Origin: Myxococcota bacterium
GTDB lineage: Bacteria > Myxococcota > JAJVIH01
NCBI GenBank assembly: GCA_022072125.1
Contig: JAJVIH010000019.1
Span: 1-64,000 of the forward strand
Direction of reading: 5' to 3'
Length of the DNA stretch: 64,000 bases
Each line of letters starts with the position of its first letter. Within the stretch, counting starts at the first letter, position 1. This document shows, piece after piece, positions 12,856 to 21,257 of the stretch. Both the position numbers and the translations under genes were made by a program. The notes beneath the pieces are model-generated. The model made no database searches. It worked only from the letters and a program-made list of their open reading frames with translations, and was not told the DNA's origin.

Positions 12856-13096
12856 AACCCGCCCGCCGCATCAGTCCGGACGGGCGGAATCACCGCGCCG
12901 GAAACCGCCATTGAACTTGCCGGCGGCGCGCGGCGGAACTCTCACGGTCCAACGCCAGTCGCGGAAAAAACATCCGGCTGGCCTCCGTGCGCCATCCGGC
13001 GCGCGCCCCATTCCATGACACATGAGGAAACAGAAGGTGGATTTCATCCCGTCCAATGTTGCGCCAGTCAAAGGCGGTGTGGAACAATCCGGACCA

Positions 13097-13963
13097 ATGT
13101 CGCGTACCCTGATTCCATGGGCGGCCACGGCGCTGGCGGCGCTGGCGGTGTCGGCCTGCGATTCCGGCGGCCCTCCCGCCCAGCCGGCCGCATCCGGTCC
13201 TTCTCCAGCCACTCCGGCCATGGCCCAGCAACCGCCCACGGCGCCCAGCCGGCTGGAACTGGTGGGTCCGGGGGCTGGAGAAGCCGCCACCGGCGCGCTC
13301 CGCGCCGCCGGACCCCAAGAGGAATCCTCGCGGGCGGTCACGGAAAAATACCTGAACTGCCTGGCGCGGAAAGACCTCGACTGCATCAACGGGCTGGTGG
13401 CCTGGGACGCCTTCCGCCTGTTCCGTTCCCTCGAAGCCACGGCGCTGCTGCCCGTGGACAAACGCCTGGAGCACTACCGCAAATACGCCGGGGATATACT
13501 GGACGCCTCGCCGTCCGGACTGATGGCGCCGCCGCGGGATTTCAACCTCCTCGATCACGATCCGGTGAAGGCCATCCTGAATGCGGAGCAGACCCACGAG
13601 GTGCGGGAATCCCTCCATGTGGATGTGATCGAGTGGGATGGCGTGCCGGGGCAGTGGAAATTCCGCAACCTCGATCCCTCCATGATGTTGTGCGAACTGA
13701 TGATGGGACACGCCAAGAAGGTGATGAGCGCCTTCGATAAGAAGGTTTACGTGGTGCTGGCGCCGCGGGCCGCCAATCCGGGCCTGCCGCCGATCCATTT
13801 CTTCACGGTGCGGCGCGCGGCGGACGGGAAATGGCGCATGGGTTCGCCGCTGCCGCTGACGGAAGATGTCTTCCCGCGCCCGCGCCCGCTGGAAATGCTC
13901 AAGACGCTGCGCATCCGCTACGAACACGAACGGCCGCGCGGCGCCCCCTGTTTTGATCAGTAG
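13097..13963 (+). CDS. Uncharacterised lipoprotein
   Basis: 288 residues. The signal sequence MSRTLIPWAATALAALAVSAC ends in a lipobox (VSAC), followed by a Pro/Ala linker to about residue 65 and a soluble domain with no motif I recognise (EKYLNCLARKDLDCINGL, then VYVVLAPRAANPGLPP near the end). Two Cys spaced by seven residues in LNCLARKDLDC could form a disulfide after export. The upstream in-frame start would place the signal peptide internally and is not preferred. It stands alone between the SDR and the nuo cluster. Confidence 0.75.
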   Translation: MSRTLIPWAATALAALAVSACDSGGPPAQPAASGPSPATPAMAQQPPTAPSRLELVGPGAGEAATGALRAAGPQEESSRAVTEKYLNCLARKDLDCINGLVAWDAFRLFRSLEATALLPVDKRLEHYRKYAGDILDASPSGLMAPPRDFNLLDHDPVKAILNAEQTHEVRESLHVDVIEWDGVPGQWKFRNLDPSMMLCELMMGHAKKVMSAFDKKVYVVLAPRAANPGLPPIHFFTVRRAADGKWRMGSPLPLTEDVFPRPRPLEMLKTLRIRYEHERPRGAPCFDQ

Positions 13964-14530: not shown

Positions 14531-15634
14531 ATGTTTGCTTTTCTGTTTTTTACGTTCGCCTTCCTGACGGTGGCCGCGGCCATCACCACGGTGACGCTGC
14601 GCAACCCGGTGTACTCCGCCGTGTCGCTGGTGGTGGCGCTGTTCTTTCTGGGGATGATTTTCCTCCAGCTTTATGCGCATTTTCTGGGCATCATCCAGAT
14701 TCTGGTCTACGCGGGGGCCATCGTGGTGCTGTTCCTGTTTGTGATCCAGCTTCTGGATCAACGGGATGAAGGCGTGGGTTTTGACGCCGGCAAGGTGGCG
14801 GGACCCTTCGCGGGCTTTCTCGCAGTGGTGACCGGCCTGACCATCTTCGCGGCGGTTTTCCCCAGCCTGAAAGGCATTGACGGCCCTCCCGATGAACCGG
14901 TGAAAATGATCGGGCTGTTTGAAGACCGCGGCGGCAAACTAACCAACCTGTCCGCCCACCTGCCGGAATCCTGGCGGGAAGGCGGCAAAACCGTCACCCG
15001 CGAGGCCATGCCGGTCCGGTTCGACGCCGCCGGCGCGGACAATTACGCGATCCTTGTTGGATTCGCCCGTCCGGACGCCGAGGGCATTCAAACCACCCTG
15101 CTCACCCCCGCCAAACCAATCCACGGCCAGCAAACCCGTTTCTTCCAGGATGATCCGGATGATGCTCTGGTCAAGGAACTGCGGGAGGGTACGCGGAACC
15201 GCTCGGGCAAGCGCGTGACCGCCAGCTATTTTGACGGCCGCGGATGGTCTCCGCTGCCCGGCTTCACCGATCGCACCGCGCAAGGCAAAAACAGCTTCGC
15301 GCAGAACGGCAAGCTGCTGTGGCGCCCCCCCTTCAACTGGGCGCCCTACGCGCCGCGCGGCGCCGCCCAGCGGGGTTATTATATCAAGCTGGAATTCACG
15401 GGCGGCGATGAAGGCGGCAAGGAGAAACAGGGCGGCGAATCCACCGTCAGCCCGTCGTTCGCGCTGGCGTCCATTCTGCCAATCGGCGACGAACGCTACG
15501 GCACGCCGGAGGCGGTCGCTTCCGAACTCTACAATTTCCAGGTTCCACGGTACGTGGTGGCCTTCGTACTGACCTCTTTCCTGTTGCTGGCCGCCATCAT
15601 CGGAGCGGTGGTGCTGGCCAAGCGCAAGGTCTGA
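14531..15634 (+). CDS. nuoJ: NADH-quinone oxidoreductase subunit J with large inserted domain
   Basis: 367 residues, about twice the usual 165-190. Residues 1-111 give four transmembrane helices with the conserved AHFLGIIQILVYAGAIVVLFLFVI core. Residues 340-362 (YVVAFVLTSFLLLAAIIGAVVLA) are the normal fifth helix, and the KRK end suggests a cytoplasmic C-terminus. Residues about 118-318 (14882-15484) are a soluble insertion on the opposite, presumably periplasmic, face. Its second half (YFDGRGWSPLPGFTDRT, then WRPPFNW and YYIKLEFTG) resembles the Trp-rich beta-sandwich repeats of secreted proteins. NuoJ is part of the proton-pumping membrane arm. No frameshift is apparent. Confidence 0.9.
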   Translation: MFAFLFFTFAFLTVAAAITTVTLRNPVYSAVSLVVALFFLGMIFLQLYAHFLGIIQILVYAGAIVVLFLFVIQLLDQRDEGVGFDAGKVAGPFAGFLAVVTGLTIFAAVFPSLKGIDGPPDEPVKMIGLFEDRGGKLTNLSAHLPESWREGGKTVTREAMPVRFDAAGADNYAILVGFARPDAEGIQTTLLTPAKPIHGQQTRFFQDDPDDALVKELREGTRNRSGKRVTASYFDGRGWSPLPGFTDRTAQGKNSFAQNGKLLWRPPFNWAPYAPRGAAQRGYYIKLEFTGGDEGGKEKQGGESTVSPSFALASILPIGDERYGTPEAVASELYNFQVPRYVVAFVLTSFLLLAAIIGAVVLAKRKV

Positions 15635-15642
15635 TTCCGCGG

Positions 15643-16050
15643 GTGCATGACATGGGTGATTTGATCAACCAGATTCTGAACCTGCCCAAGGACCTGCCGT
15701 TGGGCGGCGGGGGGAGCGGCGGCGGACTGTTCAGGATTGGCCTCGCCCACTATATCGCCCTGTCGGCGATCCTGTTTTCGGTGGGCGCGCTGGGGGTGAT
15801 GATCCGCCGCAACGTCATCACGGTGTTGATGAGCGTCGAACTGATGCTCAACGCCGTGAACGTCGCCTTCATCGCCTTCAACCGGTTCGGAACCGGCATT
15901 CACACCCAGAACTCCCACGGACAGATTTTTGCGTTCTTCGTCATGGCGGTCGCCGCCGCGGAAGCCGCCGTCGGGCTGGCCATCATCATCAATGTGTTCC
16001 GCCTGCGCGAGACCGTGAACGTGGACGAACTGGACGTTCTCAAACACTGA
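15643..16050 (+). CDS. nuoK: NADH-quinone oxidoreductase subunit K
   Basis: Up to 135 residues against about 100 for typical NuoK. Three helices carry the two functional Glu residues, in SVELMLNAVN and AAAEAAVGLAI, which line the proton path. The extra 30-odd N-terminal residues include a Gly-rich GGGGSGGG stretch. The start is uncertain: GTG at 15643 (8 nt after nuoJ) or ATG at 15652; the latter shortens the tail by only three residues. The gene lies between nuoJ and nuoL in the standard order. Confidence 0.93.
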   Translation: MHDMGDLINQILNLPKDLPLGGGGSGGGLFRIGLAHYIALSAILFSVGALGVMIRRNVITVLMSVELMLNAVNVAFIAFNRFGTGIHTQNSHGQIFAFFVMAVAAAEAAVGLAIIINVFRLRETVNVDELDVLKH

Positions 16051-16081
16051 AGCGCGAACGGAAGCCACCGAAGCATTCACC

Positions 16082-18115
16082 ATGCAATTCACACTTCAGC
16101 ACCTGGGCGGCAACGAATACAGCTTCAACCTGCTGTACCTGATTCCTCTCTTCCCCCTGCTGGGAGCGGCGATCAATGGCCTGCTCTGGCCGCTGCTGAA
16201 CCGCATCACGCTGGTCTTCGCCGAGCGCAAACTGCCGCGCGGCCTGGTTCATGTCACCGCCGTGGGCGCCATGGCCGCTTCCGCCGGCGCGGCCATCATC
16301 GCCTTCCTCAAGCTGCGCGGCCTGCCCCTCTCCGATTCGCCAGTCTTCGTCTTTCACTGGTGGGACTGGTTCCAGGCGGGCGGACTGAAGGTCGCCGTGG
16401 CCTTCCGCTACGACCAGCTGACCGCGGTCATGTGTCTGATCATCACCTGCATCGGCGCGATGATCCACGTGTACTCCATCGGGTACATGTCGGAGGAGGA
16501 ATCCTACAACCGCTATTTCACCTATCTGAACCTGTTCGTCTTCTTCATGCTCATCCTGGTGATGGGCGACAGCCTGCCGCTGATGTTCGTCGGCTGGGAA
16601 GGCGTGGGGCTGGCCTCCTACCTGTTGATCGGCTTCTGGTTCGAAGACTCCGAAAAAGCCAGCGCCGGCAAAAAGGCGTTTATCGTCAATCGCGTGGGCG
16701 ACGCCGGATATCTGCTGGGCATGTTCATGCTTTTCGTGCTGTTCGGCACGCTGAACTTCAGCGAACTGGCGGACAAGGCCGCCGCCTCCGGATTCAGCCC
16801 GGCGGATCATCCCTGGATGCTGAGCGCCGCGCTGATCTGCCTGTTCATCGGCGCCGCCGGCAAGTCCGCGCAGATTCCGCTGTACGTCTGGCTCCCCGAC
16901 GCGATGGCCGGCCCCACTCCGGTGTCGGCGCTGATCCACGCCGCGACGATGGTGACCGCCGGCGTGTACATGATTGCGCGGCTGAATTTCGTTTACGCCC
17001 TGTCGCCCGCGGCCATGACGGTGGTCGCCGGCGTGGGCGCCGCGACCGCTCTTTTCGCCGCGACCATGGGCTTTTACCAGAATGACATCAAGAAGGTGCT
17101 GGCCTACTCGACCGTATCGCAGTTGGGCTTCATGTTCATCGCTGTGGGAGTGGGCGCCTGGTGGGTGGGGATTTTCCACCTGATGACCCACGCCTTCTTC
17201 AAGGCCTGCCTGTTCCTCGGCGCCGGATCAGTGATTCACGGCATGCACCACGAACAGGACATGCGCAAAATGGGCGGCCTCAAATCCTACATGCCCATTA
17301 CATATTGGACCTATTTCCTGGCCACCCTCGCCATCGCCGGCATTCCGCCCTTTTCCGGTTTCTTCTCGAAGGATGAAATCCTCTACAAGGCCTGGACCGG
17401 CGGCAATATCCTGAATCCCGCCGGCAAGGTGATCTTTTTCACCGGATTGCTGGCGGCGCTATGCACCGCGTTCTACATGTTCCGCAGCGTATTCATGACC
17501 TTCCATGGCGAATCGCGCGCGGATGAACACACCAGGGAACAGATTCACGAATCGCCCCGGACCATGACCGCCGTGCTGGCGATTCTGGCGTTTCTCGCAA
17601 CCTCCGGCGGTTTCCTGGGGCTTCCGCATTGGATTCCGGGGCATCCCGCCAACGTGCTGGAACACTGGCTGGAGCCGGTCTTCGCCCAGTCCGCCGGTTC
17701 GCTGGTGTTTCACGAGGCCAACGGCTTCCTGTTCGCCGTGATCTCCGTGGCGGTGGCGCTCTCGGGAATCCTGCTGGCGCGTTATTTTTATCTCACCCCG
17801 GCGGGACAACAGAAGGCCGAGGCGTGGCGTCAGGATTTCAACTCGATCTACACCCTCGTCCAGAACAAATATTACGTGGACGAATTCTACGACTTCGCCA
17901 TCGTGAAAACCATCCACGCCTTCTCGGTGCTGCTGTGGCGCATCGCCGATGCTTTCCTGATTGACACGGTCGCCGTCAACGGCCTGGCCCAAATTACCTA
18001 CTACGCGGGGTATGCGTTCCGCGCGCTGCAGACGGGCAATGTCCAGCGCTACGCCGTCGGCATGATCGCCGGACTCGCGGTTCTGGCCGCCGTGCTCGCG
18101 GCCAAGGGCGGATAA
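16082..18115 (+). CDS. nuoL: NADH-quinone oxidoreductase subunit L
   Basis: 677-residue antiporter-like subunit of complex I. The conserved WEGVGLASYLLIGFW motif with the key Glu, the lysines of the proton channel (AGKSAQIPLYVWLPDAMAGPTPVSALIHAATMV region) and the YSTVSQLGFM helix are intact. The C-terminal part, after a lateral amphipathic region, ends with an extra helix (YAVGMIAGLAVLAAVLA). It lies 31 bp after nuoK and 11 bp before nuoM. Confidence 0.97.
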   Translation: MQFTLQHLGGNEYSFNLLYLIPLFPLLGAAINGLLWPLLNRITLVFAERKLPRGLVHVTAVGAMAASAGAAIIAFLKLRGLPLSDSPVFVFHWWDWFQAGGLKVAVAFRYDQLTAVMCLIITCIGAMIHVYSIGYMSEEESYNRYFTYLNLFVFFMLILVMGDSLPLMFVGWEGVGLASYLLIGFWFEDSEKASAGKKAFIVNRVGDAGYLLGMFMLFVLFGTLNFSELADKAAASGFSPADHPWMLSAALICLFIGAAGKSAQIPLYVWLPDAMAGPTPVSALIHAATMVTAGVYMIARLNFVYALSPAAMTVVAGVGAATALFAATMGFYQNDIKKVLAYSTVSQLGFMFIAVGVGAWWVGIFHLMTHAFFKACLFLGAGSVIHGMHHEQDMRKMGGLKSYMPITYWTYFLATLAIAGIPPFSGFFSKDEILYKAWTGGNILNPAGKVIFFTGLLAALCTAFYMFRSVFMTFHGESRADEHTREQIHESPRTMTAVLAILAFLATSGGFLGLPHWIPGHPANVLEHWLEPVFAQSAGSLVFHEANGFLFAVISVAVALSGILLARYFYLTPAGQQKAEAWRQDFNSIYTLVQNKYYVDEFYDFAIVKTIHAFSVLLWRIADAFLIDTVAVNGLAQITYYAGYAFRALQTGNVQRYAVGMIAGLAVLAAVLAAKGG

Positions 18116-18126
18116 CGGGTGAAAGC

Positions 18127-19728
18127 ATGAATATGACGTGGTTTGAACAAAATCTCGCCAGCATCGTCGCCTTTGTCCCGTTGCTTGGCGCCATCTGCGC
18201 GCTGCTGATCCCCGCGGAGGAAAAGGGCGTCTCGCGCTGGTCGGCGTTCTTCTTCAGCATGCTGGCCTTCGTGATGTCGCTGTGGATGTTCGCCGCCTAC
18301 CGCGACTACAGTTCGTCCATGGCGTTTGAAGTGCGCAAGGAATGGATCCCCGCCTTCGGCGTCAGCTACCACGTCGGCGTGGACGGCATCAGCCTGCTGC
18401 TGGTGATGCTGACCACCTTCCTGACCCCCATCGTGGTGCTCTCCACCTTCCGCGCGGTGGATGAGAAGGTGAATTTGTACATGTTCTGCATGCTCTTCCT
18501 GGAAGCCTGCATGCTGGGCAGCCTGATCGCGCTGGATGTCTTCCTGTTCTACGTGTTCTGGGAACTGATGCTCATCCCGATGTTCATCCTGATCGGGGTT
18601 TTCGGCGGAGACAACCGCATCTACGCGACCATCAAGTTCTTCCTCTTCACGTTCGCCGGTTCGCTGCTGATGCTGGTCGCCATTCTGTACGCCTACCTGC
18701 ATTCCACCGACCCGCTGACCGGCGGACATTCCACCAGCATCTACCACCTGGTCAACCTGAATATTTCTCCGAATGCTCAGATGCTGTGTTTCCTGGCCTT
18801 TTCGCTGGCCTTCGCCATCAAGGTGCCGATGTTCCCCTTCCACACCTGGTTGCCGGACGCCCACGTGCAGGCTCCCACGGGCGGATCGGTCATCCTGGCC
18901 GGCGTATTGCTGAAGCTGGGCGTGTACGGATTCATGCGCTTCGCCATTCCGATGTTCCCGGCGGCGGCCATGAAGTTCATGCCGGTCATCGCCGCCCTGT
19001 CGGTCGTGGGCGTTATCTACGGCGCGCTGGTGGCGATGGTGCAGAACGACATCAAAAAGCTGGTCGCCTATTCATCCGTCAGCCACCTGGGCTTTGTCAT
19101 GCTGGGCCTGGCCGCCATGACCGTCACCGGGGTGACCGGCGCGCTCTACCAAAGCATCAACCACGGCGTTTCCACCGGCGCGCTCTTCCTCATCGTCGGC
19201 ATCATTTATGAGCGGGCGCATACCCGCGAAATCGCCCATTTTGGCGGCCTGGCCAAGCTGCTGCCCTTCTTCGCGGCGGTGTTCCTGGTGGTGACGCTCT
19301 CCTCCATCGCCCTGCCGGTCACCAACGGATTCATCGGCGAATTCATGATCCTCATCGGAACCTTCGCCAGCGGAACGCTGAAACACGCCAAGATCATGAC
19401 GGCGCTCGCCAGCACGGGCGTGGTGCTGGGCGCGGTGTATATGTTGTGGATGTACCAGCGGGTCATGCTGGGACCGGTGACCAACGAGGAAAACCGCGGC
19501 CTGGAAGACATGAACCTGCGCGAGATGCTCTACATGGCTCCGGTGATCGCCATGATCTTCATCATGGGGCTGTTCCCCGAGCCTTTCCTGCGCAAGGTCG
19601 AACCCTCGGTCAACAAATTCGTGAATCAGGTCACCTCCCGCGCGAAGGAAGTCGAGGAAGCCAACGCGCGCTGGAACGAGGAGCACGGGGTCAAGACCGC
19701 CAAGGCTCCGGAAGACGGGAATCACTGA
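18127..19728 (+). CDS. nuoM: NADH-quinone oxidoreductase subunit M
   Basis: 533 residues, a proton-translocating antiporter-like subunit. The channel Glu in VFWELMLIPMFIL, the HTWLPDAHVQAPTGGSVILA loop and the KKLVAYSSVSHLGFV Lys are present. The stop overlaps the nuoN start by one base (TGATG), implying coupled translation. The charged tail after residue 500 is typical of a cytoplasmic end. Confidence 0.97.
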   Translation: MNMTWFEQNLASIVAFVPLLGAICALLIPAEEKGVSRWSAFFFSMLAFVMSLWMFAAYRDYSSSMAFEVRKEWIPAFGVSYHVGVDGISLLLVMLTTFLTPIVVLSTFRAVDEKVNLYMFCMLFLEACMLGSLIALDVFLFYVFWELMLIPMFILIGVFGGDNRIYATIKFFLFTFAGSLLMLVAILYAYLHSTDPLTGGHSTSIYHLVNLNISPNAQMLCFLAFSLAFAIKVPMFPFHTWLPDAHVQAPTGGSVILAGVLLKLGVYGFMRFAIPMFPAAAMKFMPVIAALSVVGVIYGALVAMVQNDIKKLVAYSSVSHLGFVMLGLAAMTVTGVTGALYQSINHGVSTGALFLIVGIIYERAHTREIAHFGGLAKLLPFFAAVFLVVTLSSIALPVTNGFIGEFMILIGTFASGTLKHAKIMTALASTGVVLGAVYMLWMYQRVMLGPVTNEENRGLEDMNLREMLYMAPVIAMIFIMGLFPEPFLRKVEPSVNKFVNQVTSRAKEVEEANARWNEEHGVKTAKAPEDGNH

Positions 19729-21257
19729 TGCCTGGAATGTTTTCAGAACTCGCCAAGCTGGACAACTGGTCCCAGTGGTCCATCGCCCCGATGGCGATCG
19801 TCTTCGCCGGCGCGGTGGCGACGACGCTGATCGCGGGCTTCGTCAAGGACTCCACCCGCCGGAGCTTCATCGGCCAGATATCCATCTTCTGCCTGGCGAT
19901 CGCCGCGGCGGTGAATTACGTCCAGTGGACCGGCGGCTGGCAAGACCCCGGACGGCTGGTCTGGGCCGGGTCCATGACCCTTGATTATCTGACCATGCTG
20001 ATGAATTTCGTCTTCATCGGCTGCGCCATCCTGGCGATTCTGATCTCGCTGAACACCATCAGCGAACTGGGTATCGAATACGGCGAATTTTATCCGCTGA
20101 TCCTGTTCGCCACCGGCGGGATGATGTGCATGGTGCAGGCGACCGATCTGCTGATGATCTTCATCGGCCTGGAAGTCATGTCCATCCCGCTGTACATCAT
20201 GTGCGGCATGCGCCGCTCGCAGGATCGCAGCGCCGAATCGTCCCTGAAATATTTCATCCTCGGCGCGCTGGCGGCCGGTTTCCTGCTGTATGGCGTCGCC
20301 CTGACCTACGGCGCCACCGGCGTCACCAGCCTGCATGGCATCCAGCGCTGGACCATGGAAAACGGCGGCCTGGCGGCCAATCCCCTGCTGACGGCGGGAC
20401 TGGCGCTGATTCTGGCCGGTTTCGCCTTCAAGATCGCGCTGGCGCCCTTCCACATGTGGACGCCGGATGTCTACGAAGGCGCGCCCACCTTCGTCACCGC
20501 CTTCATGTCGGCGGCGGTGAAGGCGGCGGGATTCGTGACCCTGTTCCGCATCCTGGTCACCGGATTTTTCCAGAACGGCTACACCGCCAGCCTGGTGGGA
20601 TGGGGAGAAATCATCGCCATTCTCGCGGTGCTGACCATGACCATCGGCAACTTCAGCGCCCTGGTCACCAAAAACGTCAAACGCATGCTGGCCTGGTCCT
20701 CCGTGGCGCACGCTGGTTACGCGGCGGTGGGCCTGGCGGCGGCTCCGGCCGCGGGCGCGGATGGCGTGGGCGGCGTGCTGTTCTATGTGATCGGATACGC
20801 GCTCACCAGCTTCGTGTCATTCGGCGTGGTGGCGGCGTTTGAAAAGCAGAACGGCGGCCTGAGCCAGGTGGAAGACTACCGCGGGCTTGGTTACAGCCAG
20901 CCCTTCTACGCCTTCGCCATGACGGTCGCGATGTTCGCGCTGGCGGGCATTCCGCCCACGGTCGGTTTCCTTGGCAAATGGTATGTGTTCAAGGCCGCCG
21001 TGGAGGCGAATATCACCTGGTTGGCGGTGATTGGCGTGCTCAACAGCCTGGTGTCGGTCTACTACTACCTGCGGGTGGTGGTGGCCATGTACCTGGAATC
21101 GCCGGAGGAACAGGCGGAGCAAGAGCCGATCAAATCCTCCGCCCTGTGGCTGGCGGTGCTGATTTCCACCGTGCTGACGATTGGCGTGGGCCTGTTCCCG
21201 AAGAAGCCCCTGGGCGCGGTGGAAAAATCCGTTTCGCCCATGTTCGTCAAGAAGTAA
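19728..21257 (+). CDS. nuoN: NADH-quinone oxidoreductase subunit N
   Basis: 509 residues, the third antiporter-like subunit. GLEVMSIPLYIM carries the conserved Glu, and KIALAPFHMWTPDVYEGAP and KRMLAWSSVAHAGYA carry the channel Lys residues. The ATG shares its A with the nuoM stop. An open frame continues upstream inside nuoM but is only the alternative-frame reading of that gene. This is the last gene of the nuoJKLMN unit; no nuoA-I genes occur in the window, so the complex I genes are split or lie elsewhere. Confidence 0.96.
   Translation: MPGMFSELAKLDNWSQWSIAPMAIVFAGAVATTLIAGFVKDSTRRSFIGQISIFCLAIAAAVNYVQWTGGWQDPGRLVWAGSMTLDYLTMLMNFVFIGCAILAILISLNTISELGIEYGEFYPLILFATGGMMCMVQATDLLMIFIGLEVMSIPLYIMCGMRRSQDRSAESSLKYFILGALAAGFLLYGVALTYGATGVTSLHGIQRWTMENGGLAANPLLTAGLALILAGFAFKIALAPFHMWTPDVYEGAPTFVTAFMSAAVKAAGFVTLFRILVTGFFQNGYTASLVGWGEIIAILAVLTMTIGNFSALVTKNVKRMLAWSSVAHAGYAAVGLAAAPAAGADGVGGVLFYVIGYALTSFVSFGVVAAFEKQNGGLSQVEDYRGLGYSQPFYAFAMTVAMFALAGIPPTVGFLGKWYVFKAAVEANITWLAVIGVLNSLVSVYYYLRVVVAMYLESPEEQAEQEPIKSSALWLAVLISTVLTIGVGLFPKKPLGAVEKSVSPMFVKK

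Follow-up and report, generated by a model that had tools for sequence, protein, structure and literature searches.

The window analysed here, a stretch of 64,000 nucleotides of contig JAJVIH010000019.1, contains an ordinary nuoJKLMN cluster (14531-21257) in which nuoKLMN directly follow a nuoJ gene of unusual length (Table 1). PF00499 matches its product in two pieces, profile positions 2-96 at 14579-14857 and 108-146 at 15488-15616, that are collinear, lie in one frame, and have no stop codon between them; what separates them is a stretch of some 200 additional residues that follows helix 4 and precedes helix 5. Together the two pieces score 107.5 bits (107.7 bits in the comparison with the curated cut-off of 33.2), and PF00499 was the only Pfam family found in the product. 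Hydropathy and AlphaFold2 place five helices, in order, at approximately residues 2-22, 26-46, 50-76, 87-109, and 340-365, and Y60 and G62 of helix 3, which are invariant in 33 of 33 relatives, are kept. A PF00499 search of the genome returned this gene as its sole NuoJ. The nuoA, B, C, D, G, H, and I genes are found on a second contig (C28; L132 2473-8635), with nuoB and nuoC assigned by position and length; given these genes and the nuoKLMN of the window, the NuoJ can be taken as part of a whole complex I. An earlier note on this DNA had claimed a genuine NuoJ with helices 1-4 and 5 in frame, a claim that the intact frame and the two collinear PF00499 pieces bear out, and we hold it as nearly certain that 14531-15634 encodes a real NuoJ with a real insert. 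Upstream of nuoJ, beyond a gap of about 570 bases, is a putative lipoprotein gene (13022-13963) without a Pfam match, and no candidate partner gene for the insert was evident.

Table 1. Features of the nuoJKLMN locus, with two loci outside the window that are discussed in the text.
Feature	Location	Strand	Description or basis
nuoJ	14531-15634	+	Single unbroken frame of 367 aa; NuoJ/ND6, a membrane subunit of complex I, here with an inserted domain
NuoJ helices 1-4 (residues 1-114)	14531-14872	+	PF00499 2-96; AlphaFold2
Extracytoplasmic insert (approximately residues 115-325)	14873-15505	+	Lacking in 72 named NuoJs; coding statistics match flanks; E. coli topology
Module similar to the accessory module found in baseplate J proteins of contractile injection systems	15020-15436	+	Residues ~164-302, strongest 225-294; HMM, hhalign
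Hydrophilic Gly/Lys/Glu/Ser-rich linker to helix 5	15437-15505	+	GGKEKQGGESTVSPS; AlphaFold2 <50 pLDDT at residues 292-320
NuoJ helix 5 and C-terminal KRKV	15548-15631	+	PF00499 108-146; begins with AFV where relatives have PFE
nuoK	15643-16050	+	PF00420 36-134; Gly-rich N-terminal extension (GGGGSGGG) of at most about 33 residues
nuoL	16082-18115	+	TIGR01974, 719 bits
nuoM	18127-19728	+	TIGR01972, 596 bits
nuoN	19737-21257	+	TIGR01770, 434 bits
NuoJ of G004 with Ig-like domain in helix 4-5 loop	L033 8726-9529 (G004:C48)	-	nuoEF-JKLM cluster
721-residue virion-type protein with insert-related stretch	L227 2762-4924	-	Prophage-like region, G000:C1 about 168-188 kb (also L232)

The insert is genuinely coding. 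Its codon usage and GC3 equal those of its flanks (GC3 of 0.77 vs. 0.78 and 0.81 on its two sides), and its synonymous codons have a mean log ratio of +0.35 when read in frame, compared with -0.34 and -0.44 for the two alternative frames. The edges previously given for it, 14882-15484, agree well with the limits of about 14873-15505 found here. The E. coli NuoJ has five helices with the N terminus out and the C terminus in (PMC4604451), and the C terminus of the present protein is the charged KRKV, which fits an inside location; from this topology and these charges the helix 4-5 loop is placed in the periplasm, in agreement with the claim that it lies outside the cytoplasm.

Searched as a single sequence, the insert had no match in Pfam, NCBIfam, PHROGs, PDB, phages, or plasmids, nor did any homologue spanning its full length turn up. 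Weak matches within the phylum (E about 0.004-0.009) were read as chance, being mostly out-of-frame GC-rich sequence, and degenerate DNA patterns of the module gave zero or false matches in viral contigs. The family used for profile comparison was chosen by motif, the pattern YFDGRGW..L...D.T...F..NG.L.W.PP..W...YYIKLEFTG being reminiscent of an accessory module that is repeated in baseplate proteins. The profile was built from modules extracted from TIGR02243 proteins of the phylum plus relatives from plasmids and viral contigs, with NuoJ excluded. Among 11,904 background open reading frames (ORFs), this NuoJ-free profile ranked NuoJ first with 20.0 bits and an E-value of 2.8e-4 that is to be weighed with this choice of family; the controls, which that choice does not affect, reached 8.3 bits for the next ORF and no more than 10.7 bits in 20,000 shuffled versions of the insert. 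An earlier, smaller profile had already put NuoJ ahead of everything outside the family, at 14.0 bits and E 0.025, and with a profile of 111 modules it stayed in first place (17.9 bits). An hhalign comparison of the insert with 27 modules reached 95.5% across residues 225-294. Three of the six near-invariant module columns are kept in the insert and in register, namely W73, D80, and G89 in GRGW, FTDRT, and QNG; two are conservatively changed, with Y-I-K in place of W-L-R at W111-x-R113; and one is lost, the first near-invariant Trp, W65, being Ala. We class the insert as related to the module, not as a member of it, because of the lost W65 and the change of W-L-R to Y-I-K. The match appears modest in significance, at about 20 bits, yet consistent, and homology between the insert and the baseplate-type module is in our judgment quite probable.

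Of the resemblance to carbohydrate-binding or baseplate-like proteins that the earlier note had proposed, the baseplate part is upheld by the NuoJ-free profile and hhalign, whereas the carbohydrate-binding part is not, as the module region matched nothing in Pfam even at E up to 10, secreted carbohydrate-binding families included. The suggested search of the insert by itself for remote homologs gave nothing with single sequences and a match with the profile of the baseplate accessory module. A beta-sandwich fold, as suggested from the sequence, is plausible. AlphaFold2 modeled helices 1-4 of the full NuoJ mostly at 71-92 pLDDT, helix 5 at moderate confidence, and the insert at about 30-68, with strands at residues 228-234, 239-241, and 285-290 that all fall in the module and are of low confidence; modeled alone, the insert had few strands and a pLDDT of about 34.

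The accessory module is present in the solved baseplate chains of Pvc11 (6j0n), Afp11 (6rao), and All3317 (7b5h), as well as in 7aeb and 9gtp, and also occurs in a likely secreted lipoprotein of another genome (L230). It thus seems to be a general extracellular or virion part, and descent from an injection system is not thereby proven. A phage-like protein of 721 residues encoded in the source genome contains a stretch with 28% identity to the insert over 50 residues (E 5e-5 in a single comparison). The genes adjoining it encode a major head protein and a portal, and the prophage-like region in which it lies is further marked by a virion structural protein.

PF00499 was found in 33 of 39 phylum genomes (mostly one per family) and was split by a long insert only here and in one genome of another class of the same phylum (G004); a larger PF00499 list contained no further split match among the approximately 150 matches listed. 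A helix 4-5 insert is absent from all 72 named NuoJs, which come from a wide range of phyla; the NuoJ of G004 has an unrelated one there. No relatives were found by a locus-level NuoJ search, and the source genome is the only member of its class in a set of 195 phylum genomes. One truncated NuoJ, from G016, starts too near a contig end to be judged. The NuoJ of G004 resembles the present one in carrying a domain of extracellular repeat type at the same place; it differs in that the domain is of about 100 residues and matches the tandem Ig-like repeats of large phylum proteins (best E 2.5e-7, 40% identity), and in that its genome holds an extra, normal NuoJ (L034). Homology between the two inserts was rejected, their sequences being unrelated, and the occurrence of two unrelated modules at one NuoJ site suggests that the loop is exposed and tolerant of insertion. 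The earlier assertion of a new architecture therefore needs qualifying: no description of a NuoJ with such a loop domain was found in the open-access literature or among the solved NuoJ/ND6 chains, whose length is up to 252 residues, but in G004 a different domain occupies the same site.

Two further departures from the usual sequence lie close to the insert. At the start of helix 5, the two changed positions of the PFE motif are Glu in 33 of 33 and Pro in 31 of 33 aligned relatives; a few insert-free NuoJs beyond these 33 also lack the Glu. The motif is typical of NuoJ and not strictly defining. In E. coli, J-Glu142 is reported to face A-Glu81 and A-Glu102 and to be a potential link to the periplasmic surface (PMC8357420). 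By a numbering match made in this analysis, the Glu replaced by Val here appears to be the counterpart of J-Glu142; the NuoA of the source genome retains its FDIE and FVE motifs, and loss of the Glu could indicate a degraded NuoJ subunit. The second departure is the putative Gly-rich extension of NuoK (15643-15735, VHDMGDLINQILNLPKDLPLGGGGSGGG), for which the start codon is uncertain; it is absent in the other NuoKs compared, which likely start shortly before the core, and it is expected on the periplasmic side. On the second contig, NuoH (L132 6801-8087; G000:C28) is longer by about 70 residues that lie between its helices 6 and 7 and are probably a transmembrane hairpin. This insertion was dismissed as a special feature, as one is found at this position in Acidobacteria too (loci L062 and L070) and PF00146 spans of equal length occur in several phylum genomes.

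The periplasmic helix 4-5 loop of this NuoJ has been enlarged by about 200 residues, and the middle of the addition resembles the baseplate accessory module at profile level. The explanation that we favor is that this module folds independently in the periplasm and acts as a contact domain. Positioned close to NuoA, NuoH, NuoK, and NuoN at the periplasmic surface of complex I, it would serve as a buttress for the membrane arm or as a docking site for a partner in the periplasm or envelope, much as accessory subunits are used on that face in mitochondria, and the loop would be an insertion-tolerant site that is reused for modular additions, such as the Ig-like domain in another class. Taken as a whole, this account is to our mind somewhat the likelier one. 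The insert-bearing architecture of the NuoJ is well supported; the contact function is one that we infer from the position of the module, the kinds of proteins that carry it, and the mitochondrial accessory subunits (PMC8762328), and the chances that it contacts or buttresses, as opposed to being neutral cargo, seem to us about even.

The main rival to a contact function is that the module is a tolerated passenger, recombined once into an exposed loop, for instance from a phage tail gene, and kept because it is harmless, with little or no effect. That the insert is seen in the source genome only, with no relatives that share it, that a related stretch occurs in a virion protein encoded by this genome, and that the site evidently tolerates different inserts all accord with this scenario; the fully ameliorated codon usage and intact frame argue that the insertion is not very recent, and purifying selection on the open frame would be expected, though this is no proof of module function. 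We regard a passenger as the less probable account, albeit a serious one. A good deal less probable is compensation for divergence of the loop between helices 4 and 5 and of the first residues of helix 5, in which the domain would cap the periplasmic end of the path near NuoA Glu81/Glu102 and alter proton or water access: the Val beside the insert does replace the Glu of all aligned relatives, with its apparent E. coli counterpart facing both NuoA residues, but several NuoJs without an insert also lack the Glu, the NuoA motifs are intact, and the NuoJ of G004 keeps PFE at the start of helix 5 despite its Ig-like insert. As the genome is a draft of 78 contigs, a chimeric contig or the joining of two genes might also be invoked; continuity of frame, codon usage, and GC3, a helix 5 that is both collinear and required, and an independent genome with a domain at the same NuoJ site make such an artefact extremely unlikely.

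Mitochondrial complex I has several accessory subunits on its outer face; bacterial complex I is described as lacking accessory subunits. A core subunit with an outward module, at a site used twice, would show where complex I accepts additions. A module best known from phage-tail-like machines would have been reused in a respiratory enzyme, and the helix 4-5 loop would be a place where tags or tethers could naturally be fused to complex I. A bolder proposal, which we consider rather doubtful, is that modules of extracellular or virion type have been acquired more than once by the complex I of this phylum, always at a single periplasmic loop of NuoJ, and that here the module and the NuoK extension tether an envelope partner or reshape proton access near NuoA. 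On that reading, the present complex I would have a covalently fused bacterial equivalent of the outer-face subunits of mitochondria.

Compared with known systems, the protein is like other members of NuoJ/ND6 (PF00499) in its five ordered helices, its helix-3 Tyr and Gly, and its nuoJKLMN context, and unlike them in the addition to its periplasmic loop and the change of PFE to AFV. With the accessory module of baseplate J proteins (TIGR02243; Pvc11, Afp11, All3317/Cis11) it shares the pattern Y[WF]DG..W..L...D.T...F...G...W..P......(Y/W)[IL][RK], but the present module sits in a membrane respiratory subunit that lacks the Baseplate_J domain PF04865, and no injection-system genes were found here. 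In the Anabaena system, subunit contacts are made by additional domains that Cis11 carries (PMC8894136), which may or may not correspond to the accessory module. The nearest parallel in working is with the mitochondrial accessory subunits that contact ND6 on the intermembrane-space face, e.g., NDUFS5 and NDUFA13 (PMC8762328), which likewise add protein that touches ND6 at the outer surface of this arm of the enzyme, the membrane arm; they are separate polypeptides of unrelated sequence, and the likeness is one of how the parts would work.
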